Shown here: positions 15,150-39,927 of the stretch, piece after piece | Layout of the letters: every line of letters begins with the position of its first letter | Numbering within the stretch: the stretch's first letter is position 1 | Source of the DNA: Lentisphaerales bacterium | GTDB taxonomy: Bacteria; Verrucomicrobiota; Kiritimatiellia; JAUXFM01 | Length of the DNA stretch: 52,960 nucleotides | Direction: 5' to 3' | Assembly (NCBI GenBank): GCA_030622955.1 | Contig: JAUXFM010000005.1 | Coordinates: 1-52,960 of the forward strand | Notes under the pieces: model-generated | Databases searched by the model: none | Seen by the model: the letters and a program-made list of their open reading frames with translations, nothing else | What the model was told of the DNA's origin: nothing | Made by a program: the position numbers and the translations under genes

Positions 15150-17185
<2,036 letters not shown>

Positions 17186-24556: not shown

Positions 24557-25873
24557 CTATTGCGGCTCAATAACATAGACGCCGGTCGTGATTGCCCAGG
24601 CGTCTTCCATATTCATTCGCTTCAATTCATGACCAGGGCCCCAGGAATCTGAACAGAGTATTTGTTTTGATTTCTTGTTATAGCCGATTATGAGGCGCAT
24701 ATGTCCGCCGCCGCCCCGGATCGATGGCTTCTCAGGGATGATCCCGAGCATGACGGACCAGCATATGGGAATGCCGCGGGTGATGTACTTGTCCAGGTAG
24801 CGTTCGAAGTTCTTGTAGTCGCCCTTCATTTCCAATCTGGTCTTCTTGAGCGTTTCAGGATCCATCCGTGAATAAACGGCGGTCACATTTATGGCACGTC
24901 CAAGCGTGATCTTTGGTTGTTTGTTCTTCTTCGCAGCCTTGTTGTATCTGGCCACAAGGCGCTGAAAGTTCTTCAAATTGAACGATTCGAGCACTGTCGA
25001 TCTGCATCTGAGTTTGGAGCCGATATCGTGCAGTGCCTCGAACATGGCGCTGGGGCTGGTGCCTCCACCAATGTAGGTATTGGCCATTTGTGCAAGTTCG
25101 TGTTGATCGATGGATCTTCCGTAATAGCGAAGAATGCGTTCTGCAGTAGCGACTGCGCAATAGCCCTTATGGCCCTGATCGACCATAGGGACGCCGTCGA
25201 TATAGATGTCCCCGTCAGCTTCTCTTTTTACATTCCTGCGACGATCAGCAGGGCTGAGCGAATTCTTCTTCTCTGTCGAAGAGCTTGCCAGAGCGCTTGA
25301 GAGATCGGTGTTCTTGTCGTAACGCATGCAGAGCACGCGGATATACTCACCCAGGAAGTCCTGGCCTTGCGCTCTGTCTCCGGTCGAGTAGCTGTATTCG
25401 AGGGCAACCTGGTTCGGGCGCTTGGTCCAGACCTTGCGGAGCTCGTGGATATCCGAGGATATGCGTCCGAGATTCACTTCCTTGCCATCGGATCCGGCCC
25501 ATTTAGAAAGGCTTGCCGTGATTCTGGCGAGTGAAGCTTCAAATCGGTTCTGTGGTATAGGTCCGAGGTCACCGCGGTTATAGATGATAATATTTAACTG
25601 GTATATCGTGTTTCCTTTGAACTTCACAATTGACTCTACGGCATTGTGGCCGAGAAAAGATTGGCGAACCTTGTAAGCACGTGCGGCATCCTTCTCGTTA
25701 GAGACCCAGCGGAAGCCGTTTCTGGCGTTGGCCGTCATGAAATCCATGGACTTCATTGCCCAGATCTTGCCGTCTTCCGTGAGCATATTAGCCAGCTCAA
25801 TAGCCAGAACAGTGGTCGAAGAGACTATCAAAGACAGGATTATCACAAGTACGTGGCGCAGCTTCATTGGCAT
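24557..25873 (-). CDS. Secreted C39-like papain-fold cysteine protease
   Basis: 438 residues from ATG 25873, beginning with a signal peptide (LRHVLVIILSLIVSSTTVLA). The N-terminal half is of unknown fold. The C-terminal half (about 245-438) is a Peptidase_C39-like domain: VPMVDQGHKGYCAVATAERIL with the catalytic Cys, GGGGHMRLIIGY with the His, and CSDSWGPGHE with the Asp/Asn. There is no ABC transporter domain, so it is not a bacteriocin exporter; it is probably an exported peptidase or amidase. The ORF track's extra 135 N-terminal residues overlap the promoter and are rejected. The stop lies only 8 bp from the transposase right repeat. Confidence 0.75.
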   Translation of the reverse strand: MPMKLRHVLVIILSLIVSSTTVLAIELANMLTEDGKIWAMKSMDFMTANARNGFRWVSNEKDAARAYKVRQSFLGHNAVESIVKFKGNTIYQLNIIIYNRGDLGPIPQNRFEASLARITASLSKWAGSDGKEVNLGRISSDIHELRKVWTKRPNQVALEYSYSTGDRAQGQDFLGEYIRVLCMRYDKNTDLSSALASSSTEKKNSLSPADRRRNVKREADGDIYIDGVPMVDQGHKGYCAVATAERILRYYGRSIDQHELAQMANTYIGGGTSPSAMFEALHDIGSKLRCRSTVLESFNLKNFQRLVARYNKAAKKNKQPKITLGRAINVTAVYSRMDPETLKKTRLEMKGDYKNFERYLDKYITRGIPICWSVMLGIIPEKPSIRGGGGHMRLIIGYNKKSKQILCSDSWGPGHELKRMNMEDAWAITTGVYVIEPQ

Positions 25874-25922
25874 GTGGATGCGGCCTTTATGTTGTCCCTC
25901 TTGTCTTGTGGGGTCGTTCCAA

Positions 25923-25951
25923 TCTATACATGGCCCTGTGGCAGATGACAA
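25923..25951 (-). promoter_or_regulatory. Candidate promoter of the C39-like protease gene
   Basis: On the minus strand TTGTCA and TATAGA are separated by 17 bases, about 50 bases upstream of the chosen ATG at 25873. The match is 5/6 and 4/6 to sigma-70 consensus. It supports the shorter gene start. Confidence 0.5.
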
Positions 25952-25968
25952 GGGGGAATGGTGAGGCC

Positions 25969-26003
25969 TGGAATCTGAAGCTTGGAGTTTGGAGACTGAA
26001 CAC
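25969..26003 (+). repeat. Degenerate heptamer repeat before the lipoprotein gene (5 units)
   Basis: Units tggaatc, tgaagct, tggagtt, tggagac, tgaacac run without interruption. This is the fourth spacer in the window with 7-base periodicity and closely resembles the units near queD and queE. Confidence 0.5.
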
Positions 26004-26039
26004 TTGTCTGTCCTGTGGCGCAAGCGTATATTGAAAGGC

Positions 26040-26369
26040 ATGAAGAAGCTAGCTTCAGCCATTATGATTATCAGCGTTCTGTTCATAGCAGGTTGCACTA
26101 GCACGCTTTTCAGGAACCCTGCATGGAAGAAGTTTGTCGACAACTCAAGGATCGTCAGTGTGGCCAAGCGATCATACCAGATGGGGCACAATGTAGAGAT
26201 TGGTACGGTGATAACCTGGGAAGATCTTACATTCTGCCTGCCGGCCAAGTGGAAGCCTGTCTGCTTGTCAGGCGGCAAGCTTGAGCCTGGGGCTATAGGC
26301 GAACAGATGAAATGCTCGGTGCATGGTCAGCTCGCGGATCTATCGACCAGGCTGCGACAGGCCCGGTAA
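26040..26369 (+). CDS. Small lipoprotein of unknown function
   Basis: 109 residues from ATG 26040 (AAAGG just upstream). A lipoprotein signal is clear: MKKLASAIMIISVLFIAGC with the lipobox Cys at 19. The mature part (TVITWEDLTFCLPAKWKPVCLSGGKL ... KCSVHGQL) has three further Cys and reads like a short competence-pilin-like or ComGC-tail motif, in which a sequence such as CPxGG is followed by KCSVHG. That resemblance is weak. It is followed 18 bp later by the SprT-like gene on the same strand. Confidence 0.65.
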   Translation: MKKLASAIMIISVLFIAGCTSTLFRNPAWKKFVDNSRIVSVAKRSYQMGHNVEIGTVITWEDLTFCLPAKWKPVCLSGGKLEPGAIGEQMKCSVHGQLADLSTRLRQAR

Positions 26370-26387: not shown

Positions 26388-27092
26388 ATGATCAAACAGG
26401 AGCAGATTGAGATCGCTTTTGAAGCGCCATCACTTACGCGCTCGGAGTTTGGTGCTTTTCTTAATGATGGGGCAAGAGCCCCGATATCTGTGAAGTTCAC
26501 CAGGAATCGAGTGACAATGCTCTCCGCTTCTTTTGCAGTCGATGGTATCGATCTTAGATTGCACCAGTCATTTCTTGCGGCGCCCCTGGCGATTCGAAAG
26601 GCCCTGCGCACCTATCTGCGCACAAGGCGCAAGGCGGCATGGCGTGAGGTCTCGGCTTTCGCCGATTGCATTGATTCGGAAAGGAGCCGTCCGGGTAGAC
26701 GACTGAGGTCTGCAGGTAAGGTGTTTAACCTGGAGCAGATCAGGAAAGAGATCAACATGGAGTTCTTCAATGATCGTGTGAAGTGCCAAGTGGGGTGGGG
26801 TAAGCGTGCGCCTCGCCGACAAAGGTGGCGCCGACGAAAATCGATAAGCTACGGCTCGTGGAATGCTGCTACGAGAACGGTCCGAGTCAATCCTCTGCTT
26901 GACAGTGAGTCAATTCCCGTTGAATTCATCAGATACATTGTTTTTCACGAGATGCTGCATTCTGTTGTACCTGACGAGAGGACGAGGAGCAGGATTAACT
27001 ACCATACGGCACAGTTCAGAAAACTGGAGCACGCCTTCCCCGATCTTTCCCGCATGCGGGCGCTGGGCGACAGACTGATCAATGTGCTCTAG
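26388..27092 (+). CDS. SprT-like zinc metalloprotease
   Basis: 234 residues. The C-terminal half carries YIVFHEMLHSVVPDERT with the HExxH zinc motif and a downstream YHTAQFRKLEHAFPD that supplies a third histidine, the pattern of SprT/WLM-type gluzincins. The family includes DNA-protein crosslink proteases and many uncharacterised bacterial proteins. The N-terminal region is basic (RKAAWREVSAFAD, APRRQRWRRRKS), which would suit DNA binding. No signal peptide. It may be co-transcribed with the lipoprotein in front. It converges on the MFS gene, 63 bp away. Confidence 0.75.
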   Translation: MIKQEQIEIAFEAPSLTRSEFGAFLNDGARAPISVKFTRNRVTMLSASFAVDGIDLRLHQSFLAAPLAIRKALRTYLRTRRKAAWREVSAFADCIDSERSRPGRRLRSAGKVFNLEQIRKEINMEFFNDRVKCQVGWGKRAPRRQRWRRRKSISYGSWNAATRTVRVNPLLDSESIPVEFIRYIVFHEMLHSVVPDERTRSRINYHTAQFRKLEHAFPDLSRMRALGDRLINVL

Positions 27093-27155: not shown

Positions 27156-28490
27156 CTACGATCTGCAGTCCACAGCCTTCCTTCCCCTCGGGTCTTTTAC
27201 GCGTGAGACGATGACGGCTGAGAGCAGGATGGACGCACAGCTGGCGAGAGCCATGGCAGTGAAGCTATTCACCTGTTTCGAGAAATCTGCACCGATGACC
27301 GTGGCCGCGAACGAGTCCCAGTATTTTAGAAGCGTTGCACTGATCGTGCCGGCAGCGATTAAGCCGGGCGCGCTGGTGAACATTATGATTGCCAGGCAGG
27401 TTGATCGCTTCTGGAATGGCACGATCTCGGTACTGAACGCCATGTGCGCGACACGCAGACCATAAGTGGAAGCACCGAGCAGGAAGAAAATGGCAGTGAA
27501 CTCCCATGTATCTCTTGCGAACACGACCCAGATACACATGGCAGCCATGAGAATGCGGCTGCCTATGAGTGCAGGTTTTGCGCCGACCTTATCGCCGGCC
27601 AAGCCGGAAACGATATTGCCGAGTATTGCCCCGATCATTTGTGACAGTACCAGGACTCCGAGATATGAGTTCTCTCGACCAGTAACGGCGAGCGCATGTG
27701 GTGACAGGAAGGGCACGATCATGTAGAAACCGCAAGCAGTGAAGACTGCAGCAATGTAGTTCCTGATTTGTTTGTTCGCCATGATTATCCCCGGAATACC
27801 GCGAAGGTTGCCGGACAGGGACGTATGCTGTGCCGTATCACGTGCCGGTTGATGAGTCTCTCGGATCATGGCAAAGAAGATATACGAGAGAACGAGCAAC
27901 CCGAAACAGACCAGATGGAGAATGCCGAATCCGTATACGCCTGGAAACGCGCCGAGCAGGAATGCTATGAACCATCCGGCCAGAATCCCGATGACACCGC
28001 TGATGATGTTCCTGATCGCGAACATTGATGCACGACGTTCGGCAGGCACTGTCTTTACGATGAGCTCTTGCCATCCCGTCAGCGTCGAACCACCGATGAG
28101 GCCGGAGATGAGCTGGGCCAGGATCACGGCATAGAGCGCGAGCATGCCCCGCCCGGCAGAGCAAAGGAGCATGATGCCTGCGACCAGGTATGGCAATCGT
28201 TGAAAAATGCCGGTAAGCAGAAGCAGCGGCTTGACCCGCACGAGTCGCTCTATGAAATGAGCGGTGAAGGGGCCAGGAATAGAGAATCCGATAATGAGGA
28301 GAGTGGGCGCAAGAGACTTGATCCAGATTGGTGCGTCCAACATTTCCACGAGTTTTGGGAGTATTGTTGTCGCAAGGACGAAGGTGAGCCCACCCAAATA
28401 CAGGCCGCCCACGAGGCAGTGCATGACGTAGTTCCATGTGAATACGCTGCCCTGATTCGGGAGCTTAGTGGTTTGGGATCCTTGTGGCAT
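27156..28490 (-). CDS. MFS transporter
   Basis: 444 residues with about 12 membrane helices and the two-bundle layout of the major facilitator superfamily. A motif-A-like region (AHFIERLVRVKPLLLL) and a second-half counterpart (SGLAGDKVGAKPALIGSR, G-x3-D-x-x-G) are visible. Substrate cannot be assigned. It is read 65 bp downstream of the outer-membrane barrel gene on the same strand, so it may be the distal gene of the operon 34553-28556, although the gap is larger than elsewhere in that operon. Confidence 0.85.
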   Translation of the reverse strand: MPQGSQTTKLPNQGSVFTWNYVMHCLVGGLYLGGLTFVLATTILPKLVEMLDAPIWIKSLAPTLLIIGFSIPGPFTAHFIERLVRVKPLLLLTGIFQRLPYLVAGIMLLCSAGRGMLALYAVILAQLISGLIGGSTLTGWQELIVKTVPAERRASMFAIRNIISGVIGILAGWFIAFLLGAFPGVYGFGILHLVCFGLLVLSYIFFAMIRETHQPARDTAQHTSLSGNLRGIPGIIMANKQIRNYIAAVFTACGFYMIVPFLSPHALAVTGRENSYLGVLVLSQMIGAILGNIVSGLAGDKVGAKPALIGSRILMAAMCIWVVFARDTWEFTAIFFLLGASTYGLRVAHMAFSTEIVPFQKRSTCLAIIMFTSAPGLIAAGTISATLLKYWDSFAATVIGADFSKQVNSFTAMALASCASILLSAVIVSRVKDPRGRKAVDCRS

Positions 28491-28555: not shown

Positions 28556-29734
28556 TCAGAATCTATGGAATGCCGAGATGCTGTGAGCACGGCGAAAGAG
28601 TTCTTCTTCGCGTGTCTCATACGTCCAGCCAAGATAGATGCCCGTTGCGTGGGTAAAATAGTAACTCACTCTTATGCTGATAGTGTCAACATCCTCGTTT
28701 AGGAAGTCGAAATCGTCCGCACCTATCGGGATCTCGATAGTTTCTTCGGCATCGGTATAGGTTGCGGAGATCGAATATCTCAGCTCCTTTTCGTAGCCGA
28801 GGCTGAAGGAGTGGGTTTCGACGTCTTCGTCCTTACTGTCTGTGCCCCAGCTGTATTTGTATCTTCCGAAGAAGTTTCCCGCAGTCTGCCGGGCTTCGAG
28901 GATGTAACGCTCTGACCAGTCATTGCCATAGTTCTTGAAGCTGATGCCTGCACCGAGTCGAGCACGTTTGAACAGTTTGCGGCGTGCCATGACCTTGTGT
29001 TTCTGGTCGGCCAGGAATCCACCTTTGTCGGAGAAAGCTCCATCGTAGCTAAGCGATGTCCTGTAACTGTGGCGATATGATGCTCCAAACCTGGCCGACC
29101 AGTCTGTCTTGCCGTAGCGCCACCAGTTCTTGAATCCGACCGAGAGCGATGCGTCGGGGCGAGGTTTATGCGAGAGTTTTGCCCCGAGCGAATGCCAATC
29201 ATCTCTGTTGCGTGTCAGATTGTGGTAGCTGTAACTTGTCGAAACCCGTGATGGGCGGCTAAGAATTTCTCGACCCTTCTCAGGCGGGTTCTCTTCATCC
29301 AGCCTTCTTGCCAGTATGAACTGGCTCTCACGCCAGGCTGTGATCGCGAGGTAGCGAAGTCGGCTGGGGTTGTTTGCGTTGGCCTTCTCGCATTTCAGGA
29401 GGATCTGCCCTGCTTCGTCCCACTTGCCCTGTCGTCGCAGAACCGTTGCGGCCCCGATGTAAGCGTCGATATAAGTTGGTGTCAGTACGATAGCTTTTTC
29501 AAAGTCCGTGAGTGCATGGTCGAGTGTTTCGGAATCACGCGTGTAGCAATAGCCCCGTCCTACCAGGGCGTCGACGTCGCGATGGCTCTTTTCGAGCATG
29601 GCATTGTATATTGTCAATGCTTCTTCAACGTGGCCCTCGATCCGGAGTCTTCTTGCACGCTCGAGCCGGTCTCTATAACTCTCAGGCTTCTCGATTTGGG
29701 CAAGTGAGTTCCCGACGAGGAAGAGCAGCACCAT
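28556..29734 (-). CDS. TPR plus YaiO-type outer-membrane beta-barrel protein
   Basis: 392 residues. A signal peptide is followed by TPR-like helices (about 25-130: LRIEGHVEEALTIYNAMLEKS, DALTDFEKAIVLTPTYIDAY). The remainder alternates polar and hydrophobic residues as in a beta-barrel and ends in Phe (SISAFHRF), the usual outer-membrane insertion signal. This matches the YaiO family, found next to polysaccharide synthases and resembling TPR-barrel export ports such as PgaA/AlgK-E. The ATG at 29734 gives a signal peptide lacking a basic start; a CTG at 29761, overlapping the synthase stop and preceded by GAGGGAG, would add KTRFITGI and make a classical one. Confidence 0.8.
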   Translation of the reverse strand: MVLLFLVGNSLAQIEKPESYRDRLERARRLRIEGHVEEALTIYNAMLEKSHRDVDALVGRGYCYTRDSETLDHALTDFEKAIVLTPTYIDAYIGAATVLRRQGKWDEAGQILLKCEKANANNPSRLRYLAITAWRESQFILARRLDEENPPEKGREILSRPSRVSTSYSYHNLTRNRDDWHSLGAKLSHKPRPDASLSVGFKNWWRYGKTDWSARFGASYRHSYRTSLSYDGAFSDKGGFLADQKHKVMARRKLFKRARLGAGISFKNYGNDWSERYILEARQTAGNFFGRYKYSWGTDSKDEDVETHSFSLGYEKELRYSISATYTDAEETIEIPIGADDFDFLNEDVDTISIRVSYYFTHATGIYLGWTYETREEELFRRAHSISAFHRF

Positions 29735-29757
29735 TATTCCTGTTATGAACCTGGTCT

Positions 29758-31188
29758 TCAGTGTTCTCCCTCGTTCCTGTGGCTGTGTTCAAATCGGTAT
29801 CTGTGCACTTCGCCCCAGTCGGCTTTCTTCCCGAAGATGTAGCGGATCATGCCCTTGAACCGCCAGTAGGCGTGTAGCTGGCGGTATCCAAAGTTCTCAT
29901 AAAGGGCCGCCTGAAGCAGTTGCCACAAAGCCTTACGGCCCGGGTATCGCTTGTAGGAAAGTTCCGCAAGTGTGAGTGAAGTGACAGATATGCAGAGCCC
30001 CCAGACCAGCGCCACGGCAATAAAGAGCAGGAAGAACCGGAGGTCAATGATTCCCAGGATGAAGCTCATTATAACGAGTGGGTATCCGATGAATTCTATG
30101 ACAGCTCCCAGCAGCTCAAAGATGAAGTAGTACGGATATCCTATCATTCCTATATTGCGGTACTTCAAGTTGAAGAACATGTTGATGTTCTTGGTCAGGC
30201 ATTGCGTTAGCGCGCGTTGCCAGCGATCGCGTTGGATTGAGAGTAGTCCGAGTGTTGAAGGAGCCTGTGTCCAGCATACGGGATCGGGGGCGAAAATGAT
30301 CTTCAAGCGGTTGTTCGTCTGGGAAACGAGTTTCTGCATGTGAACCACAAGTTCCATATCCTCGCCAATGGCCTTCCTGTTCCAACCCTTGATCTGCTCG
30401 AGTATGTCTTGGCGGAAGACTCCGAATGCGCCGGAAATGATCAGGAGGACATTCAGGCGCGAGAAACCCACACGTCCAAACAGGAATGCACGGAAGTACT
30501 CTACTATTTGTATGCGCTCAACCATATTCCTCGGCATGCCCAGTTCTCGAATTTGGCCCTTCTCAAGTTTTGCGCCATTGGCAAGCCTGACAACCCCGCC
30601 GACGGCAACGGAGCCGGGTACAGCAACAAAGCCATGCATCAGCTTGGTCATGCTGTCGCGAGCGAGCAGAGAATCGGCATCTACGGAGCAGATGTATGGA
30701 TACCGTGAGAAGCAGGCCGCGGTATTCAGTGCGTCCGGCTTACCCCTGTTCTCCTTGTCGATCACGACCAGTTTCGGATCCTTCCTCGAGAAATAGACGG
30801 CTTTGACCGGACCGCATGGATACCTGTCCATCTTCTCGACCTCCACCTTTTCAAGCGTAAAATGCTCTTTCAGCAGATCGAGCGTCTTATCGGTAGAGCC
30901 ATCATTGCAGACGAGTACCTCGAATTCAGGATAGTCGAGCTGGAGCAGTGCGGTAACCGAATCGATAATTGCGAGCTCCTCGTTGAATGCGGGCATTATG
31001 ACGGAGAAAGGTTTCATGAATTCCGGCGGCAGGGCGACGCCACGCTCGATTCTTCGCTCTTCGTTGTATTCGTACATTGCTTTAGCCGCTATCCCGAGAA
31101 GGATCATGTATATCGCGTTCAAGGCGACGAAGTACCAGAATACGAATACGTCACTGGCGTACAGGACGCTATGGAATACTGTTAGCAT
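29758..31188 (-). CDS. Processive GT2 glycan synthase (cellulose/PNAG synthase-like)
   Basis: Inner-membrane synthase of 476 residues. One N-terminal helix is followed by a GT2 domain with VCNDGSTD (about 94-101), SVDADS (168-173), GED (275-277) and QRDRW (319-323), the D,D,D,QxxRW set of processive beta-glycosyltransferases. Three or four C-terminal helices would form the polymer channel. The track's start at 31221 is replaced by ATG 31188, which has a perfect GGAGG 7 bases upstream; this overlaps the HEAT gene by 20 bp. The polymer cannot be named; resemblance is to PgaC/HasA/NodC-like enzymes. Confidence 0.88.
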   Translation of the reverse strand: MLTVFHSVLYASDVFVFWYFVALNAIYMILLGIAAKAMYEYNEERRIERGVALPPEFMKPFSVIMPAFNEELAIIDSVTALLQLDYPEFEVLVCNDGSTDKTLDLLKEHFTLEKVEVEKMDRYPCGPVKAVYFSRKDPKLVVIDKENRGKPDALNTAACFSRYPYICSVDADSLLARDSMTKLMHGFVAVPGSVAVGGVVRLANGAKLEKGQIRELGMPRNMVERIQIVEYFRAFLFGRVGFSRLNVLLIISGAFGVFRQDILEQIKGWNRKAIGEDMELVVHMQKLVSQTNNRLKIIFAPDPVCWTQAPSTLGLLSIQRDRWQRALTQCLTKNINMFFNLKYRNIGMIGYPYYFIFELLGAVIEFIGYPLVIMSFILGIIDLRFFLLFIAVALVWGLCISVTSLTLAELSYKRYPGRKALWQLLQAALYENFGYRQLHAYWRFKGMIRYIFGKKADWGEVHRYRFEHSHRNEGEH

Positions 31189-32302
31189 AGCGATACCTCC
31201 ACCGTATTCTTCCAAATTCACGTTCAGCGATTACCATCTTGGCCGCCAAGCGTTTTCGCTCATTGCGATCGTGTGCGAGTGCCTTGAGCCGCGCCAAGCC
31301 ATCAGGGCCCATGCGTGATATTGCCTCCGCCGCGTTCCGGGTAACCCATGGGCTCTCGTCATTCATCAGTTGTTCAGCTTCATCGAGGTATCGGGAACCA
31401 GCGAGTCGCTCAAGAGCATTAATGGCCTTCAGGCGCATGCGGAAATCGCTATCTTTAAGGTATGGTAGCAGCACTTCGCAGTCCTTCTCGGATCCTATCT
31501 TTTCAAGCGCCTCCATGAAATGGATGGCTGCTTCCTTGTCGGTGGCGTGCTTGAGAAGCTTCAGAATAGTTGGCAGGGCAGGGCGGTGCTTCAGCGTTCC
31601 CAGGAAGTCCACGATCACTCCCTGGACTGCGGGTACCAGTTCTGCCGAGGCAAGGACCTTGTTCATGGCATCGGCGCCTTTGTTTCCGTAGGCAAGCAGC
31701 GTGGATAGGACCATATCTCTGTTGGAAGGTGTTTCCACGTACAGTTTCCTGAGCACTGCTTCCAGTGACTCGGTATCACCGCAGAGGCCGAGTCCGAGCG
31801 CAGCGGCAAAGATGGCGTGCTTGAAGCGATCTGTCTCAAGGATTGACCGGAATAGTTCGATATCTCTGCTGTTTCTCAAGTAAGAAAGTGAGCGAAGCGC
31901 AAGTGCACGTTTCCAGCCACCGTGTTTTTGTATCCGTTTGCGTAAGTGGTCGGCAAAGCCGGACTTCTCCGCAATCGTGGATTCCACTGATGCATCGACA
32001 TTGCCGGTTCCTGCGAGACGGTGTTCGATATAGCGTGCGAAATAGGGGAACGCAGCAGGTGGAAGGACTCGGCGTATTTCAGCATCATCAGATGTGTTCG
32101 CAGCAACCTTCTCGATCAGTTCATCGAACTCTGGGGTCTTCTTTTTCATATGGATCCGCACGCTTTCGTTAGCGTGTCGCCTGTTGAAGAGGTGGATGAC
32201 GATGACTATCAGGTATATCGAGAGGATTGCCCAGACCCAGGCAGCGGCGAAGACGCCGTATCCGCCGATGGACTCAACAAAACTGTTCAATGCGTCGGTC
32301 AT
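31169..32302 (-). CDS. Membrane-anchored HEAT-repeat protein
   Basis: 377 residues. One membrane helix (about 17-39) is followed by a basic segment and roughly seven helical repeats of HEAT type: RDIELFRSILETDRFKHAIFAAAL, DSDFRMRLKAINALERLAG, DESPWVTRNAAEAISRMG. HEAT solenoids are protein-binding scaffolds. The gene lies between a phosphatase/kinase fusion and a glycan synthase with 1-bp and overlapping junctions, so it probably brings operon partners together. Its ribosome binding site GGGAGG is formed by the last codons of the upstream gene. There is no catalytic motif. Confidence 0.8.
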   Translation of the reverse strand: MTDALNSFVESIGGYGVFAAAWVWAILSIYLIVIVIHLFNRRHANESVRIHMKKKTPEFDELIEKVAANTSDDAEIRRVLPPAAFPYFARYIEHRLAGTGNVDASVESTIAEKSGFADHLRKRIQKHGGWKRALALRSLSYLRNSRDIELFRSILETDRFKHAIFAAALGLGLCGDTESLEAVLRKLYVETPSNRDMVLSTLLAYGNKGADAMNKVLASAELVPAVQGVIVDFLGTLKHRPALPTILKLLKHATDKEAAIHFMEALEKIGSEKDCEVLLPYLKDSDFRMRLKAINALERLAGSRYLDEAEQLMNDESPWVTRNAAEAISRMGPDGLARLKALAHDRNERKRLAAKMVIAEREFGRIRWRYRYANSIP

Positions 32303-32303
32303 C

Positions 32304-34553
32304 TTAACCTCCCAGCATCCATGCTGCGACTCCGGCAGCAGTCACCTGGATGGTCAGGTTGTCCAAACCGTGAGTACTTACAGATTCAACAAGAGCACCG
32401 GCAACGGCGCAGAGCGCGGCACATGCCAGTGCAGAAGGCAGCGCAAAACCACCGAGGGTCAGGCCGAGTACAGCGGCGAGGAAGCTGACAGAGAACACGG
32501 CGAGGGAGCCCTCGAGGCTCCTCGTTGCATTGACTCCGAGAAGTGACGGGACTTTGTAGCGATGCTTGCCCCATCGGCTGCCTACCGGCTCGCCTATAGC
32601 GTCCCCCCAGCCACCGACCAGGTAGCCTATGTAAGCGAACTTTATGAAGAACAGGTTCGATATGACGCCACCCAGTGCAGTTGTTAGCAGGGGGACCAGT
32701 ATATAGAACGATCGATGCGGCTCATCCGTCGGCCGCGCCATGGCTTCGTAGAATGGGAAACCTTGACCACGCATTACTGCATAGAGTACGCAGAGTGCGG
32801 TAACTGAGCCAAAGATCATTACCCCGGCCAGCCCCGCCGTCAGTTGCACGACACTTGCCATTGTGAAAATGAGAAAATGGAAGATTTTACGCGTATAGGG
32901 GGTACGTACCTCGTTGATTTTCTTGAGGCGGCCAACATACATTGCCGCGAGGAGCGCATAGAAGAAAGAAAGGGGAACGAGGATTATTGTGAGTTTAGCC
33001 GATGGCAGCGCTCTTTCGATGAATGACATGCCTTTTGCGATCAGTCCCTCAGGTTTCTTCTCGACAGGTTCGACAGTCGCTATCTCCTGGACTGCGCCAA
33101 GCAAGATGGCCGGATTGAAGGTCACATTAGTGGGCATCGCGGGGCCATATGTTTCAGCGATGTCATGACGTAATCGTGCAAGCCCGGAACCATAGACGTA
33201 CCATGGTCCATCACCGTTCAGGATTTTCAATGCGGTTTTCTTTTTTTCCTGCACGCGCCAGTCGAACCTGGCGACTCTTGTGAATTCTTCATCACGTAAG
33301 CCTTCGGGTGATTCAGGATCGCCGATAAAGAGGTATTTCCTGATCCCACGCTTCTCGAGTTCCTTGAACTCACCAAGTGCAGTTGGGCGAGGCCCCACAG
33401 CGATGTGTGGTGCGATGATTGTTACCTTTCCCACGCGTAGTGGCTCATCAAAAAGGCTGGGCGGTAACGGTGCGCGATTGCTTAGAAAGGCTTGTATGAA
33501 GGCATCTGTCCGCGGTGAGGGGCTGTGGAAACTGTGCACAACGAGGGGGCGCGGCATGCGCCAGGCCTTCTGGGCGGCAGCAAGGGCTAGCTTGGGATTG
33601 TACTCCTCGATCGAGATGGGAATATGATGGAAATTTACGTGGTACTGCTCGAGCAATCTGTGCTCCCGCGCAGCAAGTCTCTCAGAGTCGAGCAGGCTGA
33701 TCACATTACGTACGTCGTCTACCAAGATAGCGACCAGGTATTCCTCATCCGTGGGATGGGGCGTTACATGAAGTCCCTTGTCGGGCGAAAGAATAGGCCC
33801 GCGTTCGAACTTCTTGCGATCCGCCAGGTGTCTATGCCTGCTTGTATATTTGCCATGGCCGGCTTTTATATTTCCTCCTGCCGCCTTTATCACATTCCTG
33901 GCGACGTTCACGCGGTCCTTGCCGAGGTAGCAGTGGATGTAGTATCGGCCTTTACCCGACCTGGCCAGCTCACTCATTTGCTCAAGTGCTTCCTTGTTTT
34001 CGCTGATCCATGGCAGCATGGGCATATGGATGAGTTCCAGCCCTGCTTCACTGACCGCTTTTTGCTCGTCGGCAAGAAGCTTTGGTTCGAAGGGGACAAC
34101 AGCCGGATGAAGCAGGGAGATCACGGAGGTATAGCCTCTTCTTTTGAGCTCACGCAGTCGTTTTTTGTCCGGATATGAACCTACGGTGAATTGATACTTC
34201 GAAGAATCCTGGAGAATGTCGGGTTTGTTCAGCATGCCCGGGGTCAGCCACATATAGAGTGTGCCGGCGAAGAAGAGCATGAGTAGCAATGGTAGACCCA
34301 GCTTAATGTGTTTCTTCCTGCTGTTGACAATGATCGAGGTGAGCAGTAATCCCACGATAAAGGTCAGGACGACGAGGGCTACCATGAAGGCTCGCACGAG
34401 GGAATCTTCGGTATTGGGGGTCCAGCCACGTTCCCGCGCCAATCCCGCAGCCCATTGGATTGGCCCAAGTAATGTTCCTGTCCCGAGCACGAACCCCGCG
34501 AGTAAGCCGATGAAGGCCAAGAGCATCAGGTTCTTTATTGTGGGTCTGAACAT
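32304..34553 (-). CDS. Membrane fusion of tyrosine/dual-specificity phosphatase-like domains and a polyprenol/phytol-kinase-like domain
   Basis: 749 residues. Three N-terminal membrane helices (about 8-105) are followed by three successive segments, each beginning like a DSP fold (FTVGSYPDKKRLRELKRRGYTSVISLL; LHVTPHPTDEEYLVAIL; VTIIAPHIAVGPRPTALGEF). The first has an intact phosphatase loop HCYLGKDR (Cys208, Arg214). The second (HSFHSPSPR) and third (YGSGLAR) lack the Cys and look degenerate. Residues 520-749 form a multi-helix domain with RKIFHF, GGWGDAIGEPVGSRWGKHRY and TRSLEGSLAVF, matching CTP-dependent dolichol/phytol kinases. A role in phosphorylating or recycling a prenyl carrier for the glycan synthase is inference. 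First gene of the operon. Confidence 0.75.
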   Translation of the reverse strand: MFRPTIKNLMLLAFIGLLAGFVLGTGTLLGPIQWAAGLARERGWTPNTEDSLVRAFMVALVVLTFIVGLLLTSIIVNSRKKHIKLGLPLLLMLFFAGTLYMWLTPGMLNKPDILQDSSKYQFTVGSYPDKKRLRELKRRGYTSVISLLHPAVVPFEPKLLADEQKAVSEAGLELIHMPMLPWISENKEALEQMSELARSGKGRYYIHCYLGKDRVNVARNVIKAAGGNIKAGHGKYTSRHRHLADRKKFERGPILSPDKGLHVTPHPTDEEYLVAILVDDVRNVISLLDSERLAAREHRLLEQYHVNFHHIPISIEEYNPKLALAAAQKAWRMPRPLVVHSFHSPSPRTDAFIQAFLSNRAPLPPSLFDEPLRVGKVTIIAPHIAVGPRPTALGEFKELEKRGIRKYLFIGDPESPEGLRDEEFTRVARFDWRVQEKKKTALKILNGDGPWYVYGSGLARLRHDIAETYGPAMPTNVTFNPAILLGAVQEIATVEPVEKKPEGLIAKGMSFIERALPSAKLTIILVPLSFFYALLAAMYVGRLKKINEVRTPYTRKIFHFLIFTMASVVQLTAGLAGVMIFGSVTALCVLYAVMRGQGFPFYEAMARPTDEPHRSFYILVPLLTTALGGVISNLFFIKFAYIGYLVGGWGDAIGEPVGSRWGKHRYKVPSLLGVNATRSLEGSLAVFSVSFLAAVLGLTLGGFALPSALACAALCAVAGALVESVSTHGLDNLTIQVTAAGVAAWMLGG

Positions 34554-34779: not shown

Positions 34780-34799
34780 GGAGGGCCGAGAGGCCCTCC
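34780..34799 (-). terminator. Rho-independent terminator of the Cys-rich lipoprotein gene
   Basis: A perfect 8-bp stem, ggagggcc-gaga-ggccctcc, reads on the minus strand into a T-rich run (TGTGATTTTTTG; the A-run is at 34769-34774 on the plus strand). It lies 27 bp after the stop codon of the lipoprotein gene. Confidence 0.8.
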
Positions 34800-34826: not shown

Positions 34827-35051
34827 CTACTTCTGCGGTGCCGCATCTTCTTTCGGCTTCGCATTACATGTACCGGCGGATTCGCCCTCTGTTTCGCAGG
34901 AACCTGTGGAAGTTTTCTTCGCTTCAGATTCGCATGTTTCCTTGCTGGGACAGCCACAGGTTAGAGGTTTGCTCTCTGCTGTTTCAGCGCCGCAACCGGC
35001 AAATGCCAGTGGCAGGGCCAAGAGTACTGCGAGTATGATTGCTTTCTTCAT
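34827..35051 (-). CDS. Small cysteine-rich lipoprotein
   Basis: 74 residues. Lipoprotein signal MKKAIILAVLLALPLAFAGC with lipobox LAFAGC. The mature part holds five more Cys (LTCGCPSKETCE, GSCETE, GTCNAK) in a charged, Ala/Lys/Glu-rich chain. GGAGG is placed 7 bases before the ATG, and a strong terminator follows the gene, so it is an independent transcription unit. No family is recognised. The Cys spacing could bind metal or form disulfides. The neighbouring 226 bp up to the operon start at 34553 hold no other gene. Confidence 0.75.
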   Translation of the reverse strand: MKKAIILAVLLALPLAFAGCGAETAESKPLTCGCPSKETCESEAKKTSTGSCETEGESAGTCNAKPKEDAAPQK

Positions 35052-35246: not shown

Positions 35247-35627
35247 ATGAGGTTAGGAACAAAGATCCTTCACATTGACGATGATGCAGGTGTCGCGCGG
35301 GCGATCTCCGGTTTGCTTGGCCAGGCCGGATACCAGGTTACCTCTGCGAGCAATGCTCAAGATGGGATCAGAAAGATAAAGAACAAGCAGTTCGATCTCG
35401 TGATTCTTGACATGAACATGCCGGGCATGCCCGGCAGCATGGTGTTGAACCGCTTGACGGGTGACGATGGTCGTACGACCGTGCCGGTCCTCGTTTTTAG
35501 TGCTTATGCACAGCTTGTGCCTGACGACGTCAAGGAGAAGGCTGCCGGAGTCTTGATCAAACCCGCAGAATCCGAAACGATGCTCGCCGAGATTGACCGC
35601 ATTCTTGACGAGTGGCAGGAGCAGTAA
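35247..35627 (+). CDS. Single-domain response regulator (CheY-like receiver)
   Basis: 126 residues, receiver domain only. Acidic pair in ILHIDDDAG, phosphorylated Asp in LVILDMNMPG, a conserved Ser in LVFSAYAQ and Lys in VLIKPAES, all in the standard order. There is no output domain, so it would act through protein contact or as a phosphorelay intermediate. No histidine kinase is adjacent. It is divergent from the Cys-rich lipoprotein with a 195-bp gap. Downstream 35628-35949 (322 bp) shows a hairpin at 35776-35804 but no gene I can support. Confidence 0.88.
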   Translation: MRLGTKILHIDDDAGVARAISGLLGQAGYQVTSASNAQDGIRKIKNKQFDLVILDMNMPGMPGSMVLNRLTGDDGRTTVPVLVFSAYAQLVPDDVKEKAAGVLIKPAESETMLAEIDRILDEWQEQ

Positions 35628-35949: not shown

Positions 35950-37095
35950 CTATGGCGAAGAGAGGAGAGCTTTCTTCGCGCTCACGATCTTGTTGATCTC
36001 ATCATCCCACGTTTGGGATTTGTTCTGCCACAGGTATTTCTGTGCAATACGAGCGCCGCGTTGGGGATCTCCCTGCCACAGATCATTCTTTGCGTGCCGA
36101 GCAGCCAGTTCCTGTATTCGTGCTGCAAGTTCTTTCGCCCCGCCCTTGAAGAAGAATGTATCGCTGTTCGGTGCGGGATCTTCCGCGAGTACTTCCGGGT
36201 ATGCGAGACGATCTGGCACGAGCGGATAGGCGCCTGCGGCAACGGCTTCCAGGATGCCGATTCCGAAGAACTCGTGCTGTGCGGTGGAGACGATCACGTC
36301 AGCATCGGAAAGAACGGCTTCGTATTCGCTCCTTGCCGGCAGGTAGCCCCAGTTTCTGATGGCGTCTGAAAAACGTTGTCGCGCTTTCTCGAATACCGGC
36401 AATGGCTTGTTGCCGCCGTCGCCGCCGATGACGCTGAGCTGGAATTCCGTTCCATTTGATCGGACGATATCCAGTGCATCAAAGAAGATGGTTGGCACCT
36501 TGTCGTATTCCCAGCGTGCTGCCCAGAGCAGGTGGATAGGCAGGCCCGACTGCCTGTTGGGGGTCAGGTCCAAATGGATGCCAGGATACCGTATCAGAGA
36601 TTTGTTCTCGATCATGGGGATTATTTCGAGTGGTTGCTGGTCGGGCATACGTTCGAGGAAATCCCTGGCACCTGAAAGGAAGGATTGGCGATGGAAATCG
36701 GAGTTGAACCAGACGCTATCCGCAGCAAGGGCAGTCGTCATGTTCGTGAAAGCGAAATGGTAATCGTATTCTTTTTCGTGTTCTACGGGGTATGTGATCT
36801 GGTTTTCATGGAAGTATGCAATTGAGGGAAGATTGCGGATTGGTTCGGCGGCGACCCCTTTGAACTCGGCGAGGTTGAGCATGTCGGAGCAGAAGAGCAG
36901 ATCCCAGGATCGGTCTGTGGCAAGTAGGTCAGCGACTTGTTGGTTGAACGTTATGGCGGCGTGGCGCATGCGCCATTTCCATTTGTTAGGAGGCAGGGTG
37001 AGGACAGTCCAGTTGTGGCGGCTGCATTCGCGCCAGCCATCAAGGAATGCCTTGTGACTCCCCCCATAATATGGTTCCAGTGCCAGTATCTTCAT
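35950..37095 (-). CDS. DUF3524 glycosyltransferase, tRNA-queuosine mannosyltransferase family
   Basis: 381 residues, GT-B fold. The N-terminus ILALEPYYGGSHKAFLDGW and the segments PPNKWKWRMRHAA, DLLFCSDMLNLAEF and AYFHENQITYPV are the DUF3524 hallmark. The C-terminal half is a GT4-like donor domain (LLWAARWEYDKVPTIFF, STAQHEFFGIGILEAVAAG). The animal member GTDC1/QTMAN adds mannose to queuosine in tRNA-Asp, so this bacterial relative may do the same. queD, queE and queC lie 22 kb away in this window, consistent with queuosine being made. Activity here is inferred from family only. Confidence 0.8.
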   Translation of the reverse strand: MKILALEPYYGGSHKAFLDGWRECSRHNWTVLTLPPNKWKWRMRHAAITFNQQVADLLATDRSWDLLFCSDMLNLAEFKGVAAEPIRNLPSIAYFHENQITYPVEHEKEYDYHFAFTNMTTALAADSVWFNSDFHRQSFLSGARDFLERMPDQQPLEIIPMIENKSLIRYPGIHLDLTPNRQSGLPIHLLWAARWEYDKVPTIFFDALDIVRSNGTEFQLSVIGGDGGNKPLPVFEKARQRFSDAIRNWGYLPARSEYEAVLSDADVIVSTAQHEFFGIGILEAVAAGAYPLVPDRLAYPEVLAEDPAPNSDTFFFKGGAKELAARIQELAARHAKNDLWQGDPQRGARIAQKYLWQNKSQTWDDEINKIVSAKKALLSSP

Positions 37096-37644: not shown

Positions 37645-39927
37645 CTAATTGGTTGAGACATTGACGGTTTCCTCATCTGTTACGGTTTTGCTCGTGCCGT
37701 TGATCACCAGTTCGATGGGCTCTCCTGTAGAGATATCAACCGATACACGATCCTTCCTGATGCTGAATTCGCAGCGTCTTCCTTTATAGAAGATCCCGAA
37801 CTCGAGCGAGTTCCAGTGTTCGGGGAGTCGTGGGTTGCATATCAGTGAATCATCATCGACGTTCACGCCGGCGAACCCCTGAACGGCGCCAGCCCAGGCG
37901 TTGCCCGCATTGGCTGCATGCACACCACCCTGTGTGTGATACCTGTTGCCCGTGAATTTAAGATCCGTATCAAGCACCATCCTGTAATGATGCCAGGCTT
38001 CCTCATCGCGTCCGAGAATCGCTCCGACGACGGCATGGCTGCCCTCGCTGAGAGATGAATCGTGAGCGGTGCGTGGCACGTAGTAGTCCCAGCATTTCTG
38101 CATCATCTCCCTGTCGAATGTTGACGGGAATGCCCTGAAGTATGCGATCAGATCGGCCTGCTTGATCACCTGGTGAGCCGCCAGTTCTTTTGAGGTGCAC
38201 TGGCGATACAGGTATGTGGCGTTGGAATACTTGCCGAAATCGAATTCCGGCAGATCGCAGAAACCTTCTGCCTGGTCGAGAATGCCGAGACGCTCGCACA
38301 TTGGTACGCGCATGCCCTTGATGATCCGCTTCCACTCCTCGATCTCTGCAGGAGTTATTTTGCTCGATGTTTCCAGCTCGCACCGTTGCTCAGACGTTAC
38401 CGTCTCCAGCAGTTCAACCGCCTTCTCCATGTTCCATCGTGCGGTCATGTTCGTGTAGAGATTATTGTCGACGGGGTAATGATACTCATCGGGGCACATG
38501 ACGCCCTTGATGACAAAAGCGTCGCCTTCCCATTCGCCCCAATCGGCCCAGAACCTTGCACATTGCAGGATCACCGGTGCTGCAGGACCGTGCCAAAAAC
38601 CCATGTTGCCACTGATTATGCAGTACTGGTTGAGGCCATAGACGACGGCTGAATTGACATGGAGTTGAATCCGGCCGTAGGGGGTCAGGTACTCTTTACC
38701 GTTCTCGTCATAGTCTTTATCTGGTACGTTCTCCTCCTTGCCGGATGGATCTGCTTCCCATGGATAGAACGCGCCTTTGAATCCGAGGCGCTTGGCCTTG
38801 GCGAGTGCGCCGTGAAGTGAGTATGCGCGGTACTTGACAAGATTGTGGCCTGCCTCTGGCATTGTATAAAGGAAGAAGGGCAGGCTGTAGAGTTCTGTGT
38901 CCCAGAAGTAGTGACCACCGTATTCGTCACCGGTCATCAGTTTCGCGTCAAGATTGATGCGGTCGTCATCGCCGCGCAGGCTTTGCATGAGCTGAAAGAT
39001 ATGCCAGCGGATATCGCGCTGCGCGCTGTTGTCGCCGCCGATACGTACGTCGCAGTCTTGCCACTTCCTTGCCCAGGCACTCTTGTTTTCCGCGCGCAAT
39101 TGATCCCAACTGAGCGCCATGACCGTTGCCAGCTCTTCAGAAGCACGGACATCAGGTGCCGGTCCCGCAGGCGTGGGATTATCTCGTGTTGTGTTCTCGA
39201 AGTCGGTGCAGACGGCAATCAATCTTTCGCACGTGAACTCCTTGCCCTGTTCGACAGCGAAAGATGTTGCGCGGCTAACGACGAGGTCGCTCTTGCGTTC
39301 CAGTTCTGACTCGGCGCAGCTGCCGCTTGGTTTGAGGGCCGTTTTGATGCTCACACGGAGATCCGTGCGTATGGCTTTTATTGTCATCTCTATACCGCTG
39401 TTGTCTGTTGCTGCGGTGCTGATCGGCTCGACGATACATTCCCCGTTCGTTTTGCATGCGCCGTCCATGTTTTGCGTAAGCAGGAGTTCTCCATTCCAGT
39501 TCAGGGGTTTTGCTGTGAGCTTCTGCGCCATTATGTGGCGCCGGTCCCATGAGAGGAGCATATGAAATGTGAGCTCTGTTTCCTTGCCGGACGGTGAGGT
39601 CCATTTGAAGGTGCGGATAAGTGAACCGTCGCGCATGTCAAATGTACGTGTGTAGCTCTTGACGGATTTCTCGGAGAGGAGCAGTCCTTCGCCGGCCAGT
39701 GTGAGCGAGTATGCCTGCCACGTGGGGAGCGCGGCTGCACAGATGTTCTGGCTCTTGTGCCAGCCGTATAGTCCTGCAATGGTTTGATAGCGGCTTGATT
39801 CAGGGTGCTCACTGCCTTCTTCCGGGCCACTGCGCATCATTACGTAGCCATTGCCCAGTGAGAAAATTACTTCCCAGTTGGCTGCGTCTTCGGGTTGGTA
39901 TCCATCTTCAACGATAGTCCATGTCAT
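37645..39927 (-). CDS. GH65 disaccharide phosphorylase (maltose/kojibiose/trehalose phosphorylase family)
   Basis: 760 residues, normal for GH65. These inverting enzymes split alpha-glucosides with phosphate, giving beta-glucose-1-phosphate. Domain order: an N-terminal beta-sandwich (SLGNGYVMMR), an (alpha/alpha)6 barrel with YFWDTELYSLPFF and the general acid Glu in VMCPDEYHYPVDNN, then C-terminal beta sheets (GRRCEFSIRKDRVSVDI). AGGAG precedes ATG 39927. The beta-PGM gene at 10156-11037, which itself carries a GH65 C-terminal fragment, could process the product. Substrate linkage cannot be assigned from sequence alone. Confidence 0.9.
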   Translation of the reverse strand: MTWTIVEDGYQPEDAANWEVIFSLGNGYVMMRSGPEEGSEHPESSRYQTIAGLYGWHKSQNICAAALPTWQAYSLTLAGEGLLLSEKSVKSYTRTFDMRDGSLIRTFKWTSPSGKETELTFHMLLSWDRRHIMAQKLTAKPLNWNGELLLTQNMDGACKTNGECIVEPISTAATDNSGIEMTIKAIRTDLRVSIKTALKPSGSCAESELERKSDLVVSRATSFAVEQGKEFTCERLIAVCTDFENTTRDNPTPAGPAPDVRASEELATVMALSWDQLRAENKSAWARKWQDCDVRIGGDNSAQRDIRWHIFQLMQSLRGDDDRINLDAKLMTGDEYGGHYFWDTELYSLPFFLYTMPEAGHNLVKYRAYSLHGALAKAKRLGFKGAFYPWEADPSGKEENVPDKDYDENGKEYLTPYGRIQLHVNSAVVYGLNQYCIISGNMGFWHGPAAPVILQCARFWADWGEWEGDAFVIKGVMCPDEYHYPVDNNLYTNMTARWNMEKAVELLETVTSEQRCELETSSKITPAEIEEWKRIIKGMRVPMCERLGILDQAEGFCDLPEFDFGKYSNATYLYRQCTSKELAAHQVIKQADLIAYFRAFPSTFDREMMQKCWDYYVPRTAHDSSLSEGSHAVVGAILGRDEEAWHHYRMVLDTDLKFTGNRYHTQGGVHAANAGNAWAGAVQGFAGVNVDDDSLICNPRLPEHWNSLEFGIFYKGRRCEFSIRKDRVSVDISTGEPIELVINGTSKTVTDEETVNVSTN

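Follow-up and report, generated by a model that had tools for sequence, protein, structure and literature searches.

What would an operon make that joins a phosphatase/kinase-like fusion protein, a HEAT-repeat protein, a GT2 synthase and an outer-membrane barrel, and do these four genes belong together at all? The question is raised by a stretch of 52,960 nucleotides from a Lentisphaerales bacterium (the window), in which the four genes, here A-B-C-D, occupy 28556-34553 on the minus strand, as the original prediction had placed them. The features are as follows.

34553-32304, minus strand: gene A, 749 aa
32304..34553, minus strand: predicted domains of A, namely an N-terminal TM region, three tandem DSP-like phosphatase domains and a C-terminal CdsA-fold / lipid-kinase-like membrane domain
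33912..33935, minus strand: catalytic loop HCYLGKDR of the first phosphatase domain of A (residues 207-214), invariant in 5/5 homologs
33144..33791, minus strand: second and third phosphatase-fold domains of A, without the Cys/Arg loop (VHSF..., YVYG...), from AF2 secondary structure and a comparison of homolog loops
32307..33041, minus strand: kinase-like membrane domain of A (residues 505-749), with motifs TRK..H, GDA.GEP.G...G, RS.EGS and E..S.HG.DN
32302-31169, minus strand: gene B, 377 aa, beginning 1 nt past A
31188-29758, minus strand: gene C, 476 aa counted from the ATG, stop at 29758
31169..31188, minus strand: B/C overlap of 20 nt, putative translational coupling
30220..30234, minus strand: QRDRW motif of C
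29761 (CTG) or 29734 (ATG) to 28556, minus strand: gene D
34780..34799, minus strand: terminator-like hairpin (consensus match only) that would split the operon from an upstream small lipoprotein gene
35247..35627, plus strand: CheY-like response regulator, recognised by sequence, divergent from the operon

Four same-strand genes joined by 1-bp gaps or overlaps had been described and are present, and the gene order that was to be sought elsewhere is kept, strand included, in four other genomes, giving five carriers in all. The operon is confirmed as real and beyond chance by this conservation, by the overlap between B and C, which is exactly 20 nt in 5/5 operons, and by the co-occurrence of full-length A with an ortholog of C: the same 5 of 346 genomes of the class hold both, and none holds only one. 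Full-length A is confined to the four-gene operon among these 346 genomes. Gene C very probably starts at the ATG at 31188 and not at the GTG upstream at 31221, since the ATG is preceded by a GGAGG, and this start produces the overlap with B. At the following junction, a CTG start of D at 29761 would give a CTGA overlap with the stop of C and restore a normal signal peptide; among relatives, ATGA is found at the same point in one and TTGA is possible in another. There are no Rfam matches or tRNAs in the window. Two neighbours were considered as additional members and rejected: a response regulator, which none of the four relatives has close to its operon, and an MFS gene, for which the gene lists of the relatives show no copy next to the operon. 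Regulation of the operon by the CheY-like protein at 35247..35627 is possible and unproven.

The synthase-type signature expected of gene C is there: the motifs NDG, DAD, GED and QRDRW, together with membrane helices, were found as proposed for a processive-type GT2, and the motifs are conserved across 58 family members. Its sequence makes C a membrane GT2 synthase whose closest known relative is PgaC, yet far under the PgaC cut-off. The best NCBIfam match is TIGR03937 (PgaC/IcaA), with 128.3 bits against a cut-off of 422.3 that is not reached, and the closest E. coli protein is PgaC with 122 bits. PgaABCD/IcaA, the poly-beta-1,6-GlcNAc system, thus offers the nearest characterised GT2 type and shares a TPR-barrel exporter and, in one relative (locus L074), a polysaccharide deacetylase; unlike it, the operon has neither PgaD nor PgaB and has a HEAT partner and gene A. 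BcsABC cellulose secretion also has an exporter with TPRs and a barrel; here C scores 39 bits on TIGR03030 (BcsA) against a cut-off of 699, no PilZ domain was matched and BcsB is absent from the operon.

Gene D has a signal peptide, about four TPRs, a predicted 14-strand outer-membrane barrel and a C-terminal Phe. It passes the cut-offs of TIGR04390 (46 bits, cut-off 32) and PF19413 (28.3, cut-off 23.9), and its AF2 model (pLDDT 86.7) has BcsC as the closest fold, with PgaA also among the matches. Profiles and structure prediction therefore uphold the proposed TPR-bearing barrel ending in Phe and place D among predicted YaiO-type outer-membrane barrels. Of the suggested YaiO/YaiP-type pair, the YaiO half stands and the YaiP half falls: with 32 bits to YaiP, where family members score at least 457, C as a YaiP-like protein is ruled out, and the YaiO/YaiP/YaiS locus of E. 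coli also differs in having no annotated HEAT gene.

Gene B consists of one N-terminal TM helix and a HEAT-repeat solenoid (PF13646, E 1.5e-20), the latter predicted to be cytoplasmic. The pairing with a HEAT protein had been regarded as a novelty of this operon, and this is ruled out: a HEAT protein accompanies this synthase family throughout, in bacteria as in archaea, at 67/67 loci spanning about ten phyla plus haloarchaea (adjoining in 65, fused in 2), against 0/22 control GT2 loci. In the first sample (n=57) it was adjacent in 55 and fused in 2, the initial HEAT profile having caught the partner in 44/57 loci and an iterated profile from these same loci the remainder; in the second sample it was found in 10/10 loci, three haloarchaea among them. 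The window follows this pattern, with the HEAT gene directly upstream of C on the same strand. A response regulator lies near the synthase in 33/57 family loci, and phosphorelay genes are common around synthases of this family. A defence system was also considered and dropped, PADLOC giving generic HEAT matches only. Whether the synthase occurs elsewhere without the other three genes, which had been named as a count against the operon, has a divided answer: it is widespread without A, and often lacks D, but not the HEAT protein. Because the family is common without A, yet has HEAT at every locus examined, the core unit on sequence comparison is HEAT plus GT2, often with a CheY-like regulator, and A and D are additions.

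The addition that needs explaining is gene A. The predicted fusion of a phosphatase loop to a kinase-like domain is borne out for the phosphatase by structure prediction, with the amendment that A has three such domains, of which two are loopless; only the first carries an active-site loop, of the CX5R type (HCYLGKDRV). Bacterial atypical lipid phosphatases of the MptpB family have the motif HCXXGKDR, in which the P-loop Asp is catalytic (PMC3091653). In all five homologs the loop of A fits this motif, with its Cys, Lys, Asp and Arg, and no WPD-type acid was seen in A. However, the loop continues as HCYLGKDRV(N/T/S) and has V where the atypical lipid phosphatases have [TA]G, and for this reason, A is not filed among them; it also differs in its DUF442/SIW14-like fold and in the fused membrane domain. 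We would say that the A phosphatase may work like an atypical lipid phosphatase without being a member.

The membrane domain of A has a predicted CdsA-like fold (4q2g, E 0.017, probability 0.96; this is the best of its weak Foldseek E-values, from a model with pTM 0.39 and a domain pLDDT mostly of 75-89 and poor at 660-680). This predicted fold and motifs of the types RK..H, GD..., EGS and E...DN recall CdsA and CTP-dependent lipid kinases (dolichol/phytol kinase), whereas no Pfam or NCBIfam model matches it, PF01148 included; a search of PDB sequences with the kinase-domain profile gave nothing, and annotated plasmid records hold no named relative. Elsewhere in the class and phylum, homologs of the domain occur as stand-alone proteins, with no GT2 homologous to C in the neighbourhoods retrieved for them. 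A CTP-dependent lipid kinase would agree with the predicted fold and with the motifs, so the polyprenol-kinase-like domain first proposed is retained as lipid-kinase-like, with prenol as only one candidate substrate. From hydropathy and the distribution of positive charges, the phosphatase is predicted to lie outside and the loops of the kinase inside, and A looks able both to phosphorylate a lipid and to dephosphorylate it.

Taken as a unit, the four genes very probably build and export a sugar polymer, and the processive-type GT2, the YaiO-type barrel, the membrane HEAT protein and the phosphatase/kinase-like fusion lend support to the synthase-dependent polymer-export operon of the original prediction. 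From a nucleotide sugar, the sugar probably being an amino sugar, C would build a chain at the inner membrane and thread it outward, where the periplasmic TPRs of D would hold it and the 14-strand barrel pass it out. B, tethered by one helix, would set its HEAT solenoid on C as an obligate assembly or control subunit, which in many lineages presumably docks a CheY-like regulator. The classic synthases known for cellulose, PNAG and hyaluronan work without a lipid carrier, so that the role of A is not implied by the rest of the operon. A may act on a membrane lipid used by the polymer pathway. Facing the cytoplasm, its kinase-like domain would phosphorylate a lipid alcohol, either polyprenol or diacylglycerol; in the periplasm, the first of its phosphatase domains would strip off a phosphate, and the lipid could thereby be recycled. 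We regard a synthase-dependent exopolysaccharide secretion operon with such an added lipid-phosphate cycle as the probable reading.

Gene neighbourhoods in relatives bear on what else A might do. OpgB/LtaS-like enzymes within HEAT-GT2-YaiO operons of gammaproteobacteria (loci L078 and L080), and also in Emticicia, suggest that A could serve polymer decoration: a phosphoglycerol or phosphoethanolamine head group would be moved to the polymer outside, leaving diacylglycerol (here the lipid in place of polyprenol) for the A kinase to re-phosphorylate as a DgkA substitute, with the phosphatase trimming lipid phosphate. DgkA is absent from 5/5 operon genomes and found in 0/13 genomes of the class that have the kinase domain, compared with 38/193 (P = 0.052, a borderline exclusion that ignores phylogeny), but the class's own operons have no head-group transferase, and we consider this role unlikely, if credible. 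That C is non-processive and the operon yields a glycolipid or envelope modification is improbable: a predicted lipid-active enzyme does sit in the operon, but the QRDRW-type motifs of C, the BcsC-like fold of the TPR-barrel porin D, and the deacetylase and a hydrolase-like lipoprotein in the synthase context of relatives argue for secretion. The secretion reading with its lipid-phosphate cycle also draws on the OpgB/LtaS-like enzymes as polysaccharide context, on a Halosolutus locus that has glmS and a sugar-phosphate nucleotidyltransferase, and on a Nitrospirae MAG in which TPR-barrel, HEAT and GT2 genes are followed by a separate phosphatase gene.

The structural matches of A admit two other interpretations. 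A regulator, with the phosphatase acting on a phosphoprotein or phosphoglycan and the membrane domain as sensor or anchor, would agree with the phosphoglucan phosphatase LSF2 as closest solved structure by profile (E 0.0099), with P. aeruginosa TpbA among the fold matches and with the phosphorelay genes frequent near the synthase family; it is rather improbable, given that the membrane domain keeps its active-site-like motifs whether it is fused or stands alone, and a plain anchor would need none. A CdsA-like cytidylyltransferase making CDP-lipid instead of lipid phosphate has the top fold match, a CDP-DAG synthase, on its side, and is highly improbable in view of RS.EGS and HG.DN, which we take to resemble dolichol/phytol kinase motifs, of a CdsA signature that is presumably missing, and of the lack of a PF01148 match.

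Returning to the secretion operon with a lipid-phosphate cycle, the openly accessible literature that was searched on HEAT proteins with glycosyltransferases/EPS, on YaiO and on prenol kinases with EPS yielded no description of this pairing. We tentatively propose, as a serious possibility, that HEAT plus GT2, which a CheY-like receiver frequently joins, forms a distinct and as yet unnamed class of glycan-synthase machine, widespread and common to bacteria and archaea. The HEAT solenoid would be its activating subunit, in the place that PilZ or PgaD-type parts fill in other systems, and this lineage would have added to it a lipid kinase/phosphatase cycling lipid phosphate across the inner membrane. 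Synthase-dependent polysaccharides make biofilm matrices, and c-di-GMP switches on several such synthases. A synthase family that extends from haloarchaea to Exiguobacterium, tied to HEAT and in many cases also to a free-standing response regulator, points to a phosphorelay-linked switch, unlike c-di-GMP. We know of no earlier sign of such a synthase having its own lipid-phosphate enzyme, and the putative fused lipid kinase/phosphatase of this Verrucomicrobiota/Lentisphaerota operon would be the first.

The four genes lie where the original prediction placed them, at 28556-34553 on the minus strand: gene A (749 aa, phosphatase-fold domains and a kinase-like membrane domain), gene B (a HEAT-repeat protein), gene C (a membrane GT2 synthase) and gene D (TPR and a YaiO-type outer-membrane barrel). 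The start of gene C is very probably ATG 31188, preceded by GGAGG, and not the GTG of the ORF finder; from this ATG the gene overlaps gene B by 20 nt, and the overlap has this length in all five operon-bearing genomes. For gene D the probable start is CTG 29761, in a CTGA overlapping the gene C stop, which gives back a signal peptide (MKTRFITGIMVLLFLVGNSLAQ, reading from CTG); this junction is ATGA in one relative and possibly TTGA in another. A strong terminator-like hairpin follows the small lipoprotein gene upstream. The neighbouring genes in the window are:

24560-26143, minus strand: C39-like peptidase protein, downstream of the operon
26388-27092, plus strand: SprT-like metallopeptidase, downstream
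27159-28490, minus strand: MFS transporter, downstream
34827-35051, minus strand: small Cys-rich lipoprotein, 74 aa, upstream
35950-37095, minus strand: tRNA-queuosine mannosyltransferase-like gene (PF12038, E 3.9e-62), upstream
37648-39927, minus strand: GH65 gene, upstream

Searching the class Kiritimatiellia with gene A identified full-length homologs in three genomes (G059, G075 and G188) and one divided between two contigs in G079. The A-B-C-D order and strand are unchanged in all four, the G079 contig ending inside gene D. High-scoring gene C (881-898 bits) occurs in 5 of 346 class genomes, exactly the five with full-length gene A; the odds of one specific five-genome set by chance are 2.5e-11, ignoring relatedness, and the five genomes represent four family labels. 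Among 388 sampled genomes from the phylum, none outside the class has a full-length gene A.

A single scan with gene C over 85,462 species genomes yielded 80 loci; the HEAT search covered the 57 distinct ones whose GT2 is family-grade (E < 1e-60). A first HEAT profile, built from the five operons, detected a HEAT gene in 44 of these; the iterated profile, whose training set included the 57 loci, located one in 55, as the next gene upstream and in the same orientation. In the remaining two, the GT2 carries a HEAT segment fused at its N-terminus (L113, E 4e-6; the L098 segment aligns with that of L113, E 1e-23). The HEAT gene is absent from 22 of the 23 other loci, which have weaker GT2 matches; the twenty-third (L124), where it is present, is a family member cut off at a contig edge. 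Because the iterated profile had been trained on the same loci, a second sample was drawn from plasmid records by tblastn. The gene upstream of the GT2 is annotated 'HEAT repeat domain-containing protein' in eight of nine annotated records (Halosolutus, Haloarcula, Salinirubellus, Mesorhizobium, Erythrobacter, Deinococcus, Planococcus and Bacteroides). In the ninth, Emticicia, it is 'hypothetical' and matches the HEAT profile (1.3e-5), as does that of an unannotated Paenibacillus record (7.5e-52). A HEAT gene is likewise present in the divergent class genomes G095 and G157. Taken together, the pair spans bacteria and haloarchaea. The pairing is constant in the loci examined, and HEAT plus GT2 is the core of the machine.

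In 33 of the 57 loci there is a CheY-like receiver no more than 6 kb away, in many cases as the gene just upstream of the HEAT gene or of the TPR/barrel gene preceding it. On a Planococcus maritimus plasmid (L188 1-7416), polyphosphate-polymerase-domain, DUF4956 and CotH-kinase genes precede the pair, and a Qat defence gene is nearby.

The NDG, DAD, GED and QRDRW motifs of gene C, a GT2, are kept across the family. PgaC/IcaA is its best NCBIfam model, at 128 bits where the cut-off is 422; E. coli PgaC, YaiP and BcsA score 122, 32 and 12 bits against the family profile, and no family member scores below 457. The substrate may be an amino sugar, as suggested by the glmS and sugar-phosphate nucleotidyltransferase genes adjoining the synthase in Halosolutus and by a polysaccharide deacetylase in a Burkholderiales locus. 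Gene D exceeds both cut-offs for the YaiO barrel domain, and its AlphaFold model (pLDDT 86.7) has eight TPR helices and 14 strands. E. coli BcsC is the best PDB match of the model; OmpG and 4y25, the barrel of a polysaccharide exporter, are among the further matches. Outside the class, YaiO barrels adjoin the pair at six proteobacterial loci and at one locus of a Nitrospirae MAG, seven in all, and also in Mesorhizobium and Emticicia.

OpgB/LtaS-like sulfatase-fold transferases within HEAT-GT2-YaiO operons hint at polymer decoration of the phosphoglycerol type. A hydrolase-like family also recurs beside HEAT-GT2 operons of unrelated lineages; it has no Pfam matches, and its PDB sequence match is a 'putative GH97' protein (10yv, E 4e-8).

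L078 12717-15098: OpgB/LtaS-like transferase
L080 12678-15158: OpgB/LtaS-like transferase
L185 8637-10604: OpgB/LtaS-like transferase, Emticicia plasmid
L036 8025-8963: hydrolase-like, right upstream of gene A in G079
L078 15091-16047: hydrolase-like
L080 15151-16137: hydrolase-like
L081 about 15236-16090: hydrolase-like
L074 3917-5626, minus strand: hydrolase-like

The gene A model (pLDDT 73 overall, mostly 80-90 in the phosphatase part) comprises three alpha/beta repeats, at about residues 113-475, and a helical membrane domain. By Foldseek, with weak E-values (best 0.017), the repeats group with DUF442, SIW14 and other DSP-like phosphatases (rmsd 2.6 A over 106 columns with DUF442), and the membrane domain resembles the CDP-DAG synthase CdsA fold. 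Hydropathy and charge suggest an inside N-terminus, three helices, phosphatase repeats outside and then kinase loops inside. The membrane domain matched no Pfam or NCBIfam model; its motifs (TRK..H, GDA.GEP.G...G, RS.EGS and E..S.HG.DN), which resemble those of dolichol/phytol kinases, recur in eight stand-alone class proteins. The CX5R loop is confined to the first repeat, as HCYLGKDR in 5/5 homologs, its Cys and Arg being lost from repeats two and three. Bacterial atypical lipid phosphatases have the motif HCXXGKDR, with its loop Asp acting in catalysis and its Lys in substrate binding (PMC3091653); they continue with [TA], gene A with V. In a Nitrospirae MAG, a stand-alone phosphatase gene encoding HCYLGRHRT comes after TPR-barrel, HEAT and GT2 genes, which independently associates this type of phosphatase with the machine.

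DgkA occurs in none of 13 class genomes with the kinase-like domain, against 38 of 193 overall (P = 0.052), a suggestive absence only, and the stand-alone domain is possibly a non-orthologous replacement for DgkA. The eight genomes with stand-alone homologs (L037-L044) all lack DgkA. Four of the five operon genomes have UppP.

The operon, its conservation, its motifs, its predicted folds and the constancy of the HEAT-GT2 pairing are the established parts of the mechanism. Gene C would polymerise and translocate the polymer with gene B as its cytoplasmic partner, gene D would export it, and gene A would cycle a lipid phosphate. Candidates for this lipid are a polyprenol, as originally proposed, and diacylglycerol, to which the OpgB/LtaS-like head-group transferases in related operons of gammaproteobacteria and Emticicia point; known relatives of these transferases release diacylglycerol. 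The open-access literature searched held no description of the constant HEAT partner or of the fused lipid kinase/phosphatase, an absence that does not prove the novelty of either. We rate the operon as a variant of synthase-dependent exopolysaccharide secretion, with parts of known kinds.
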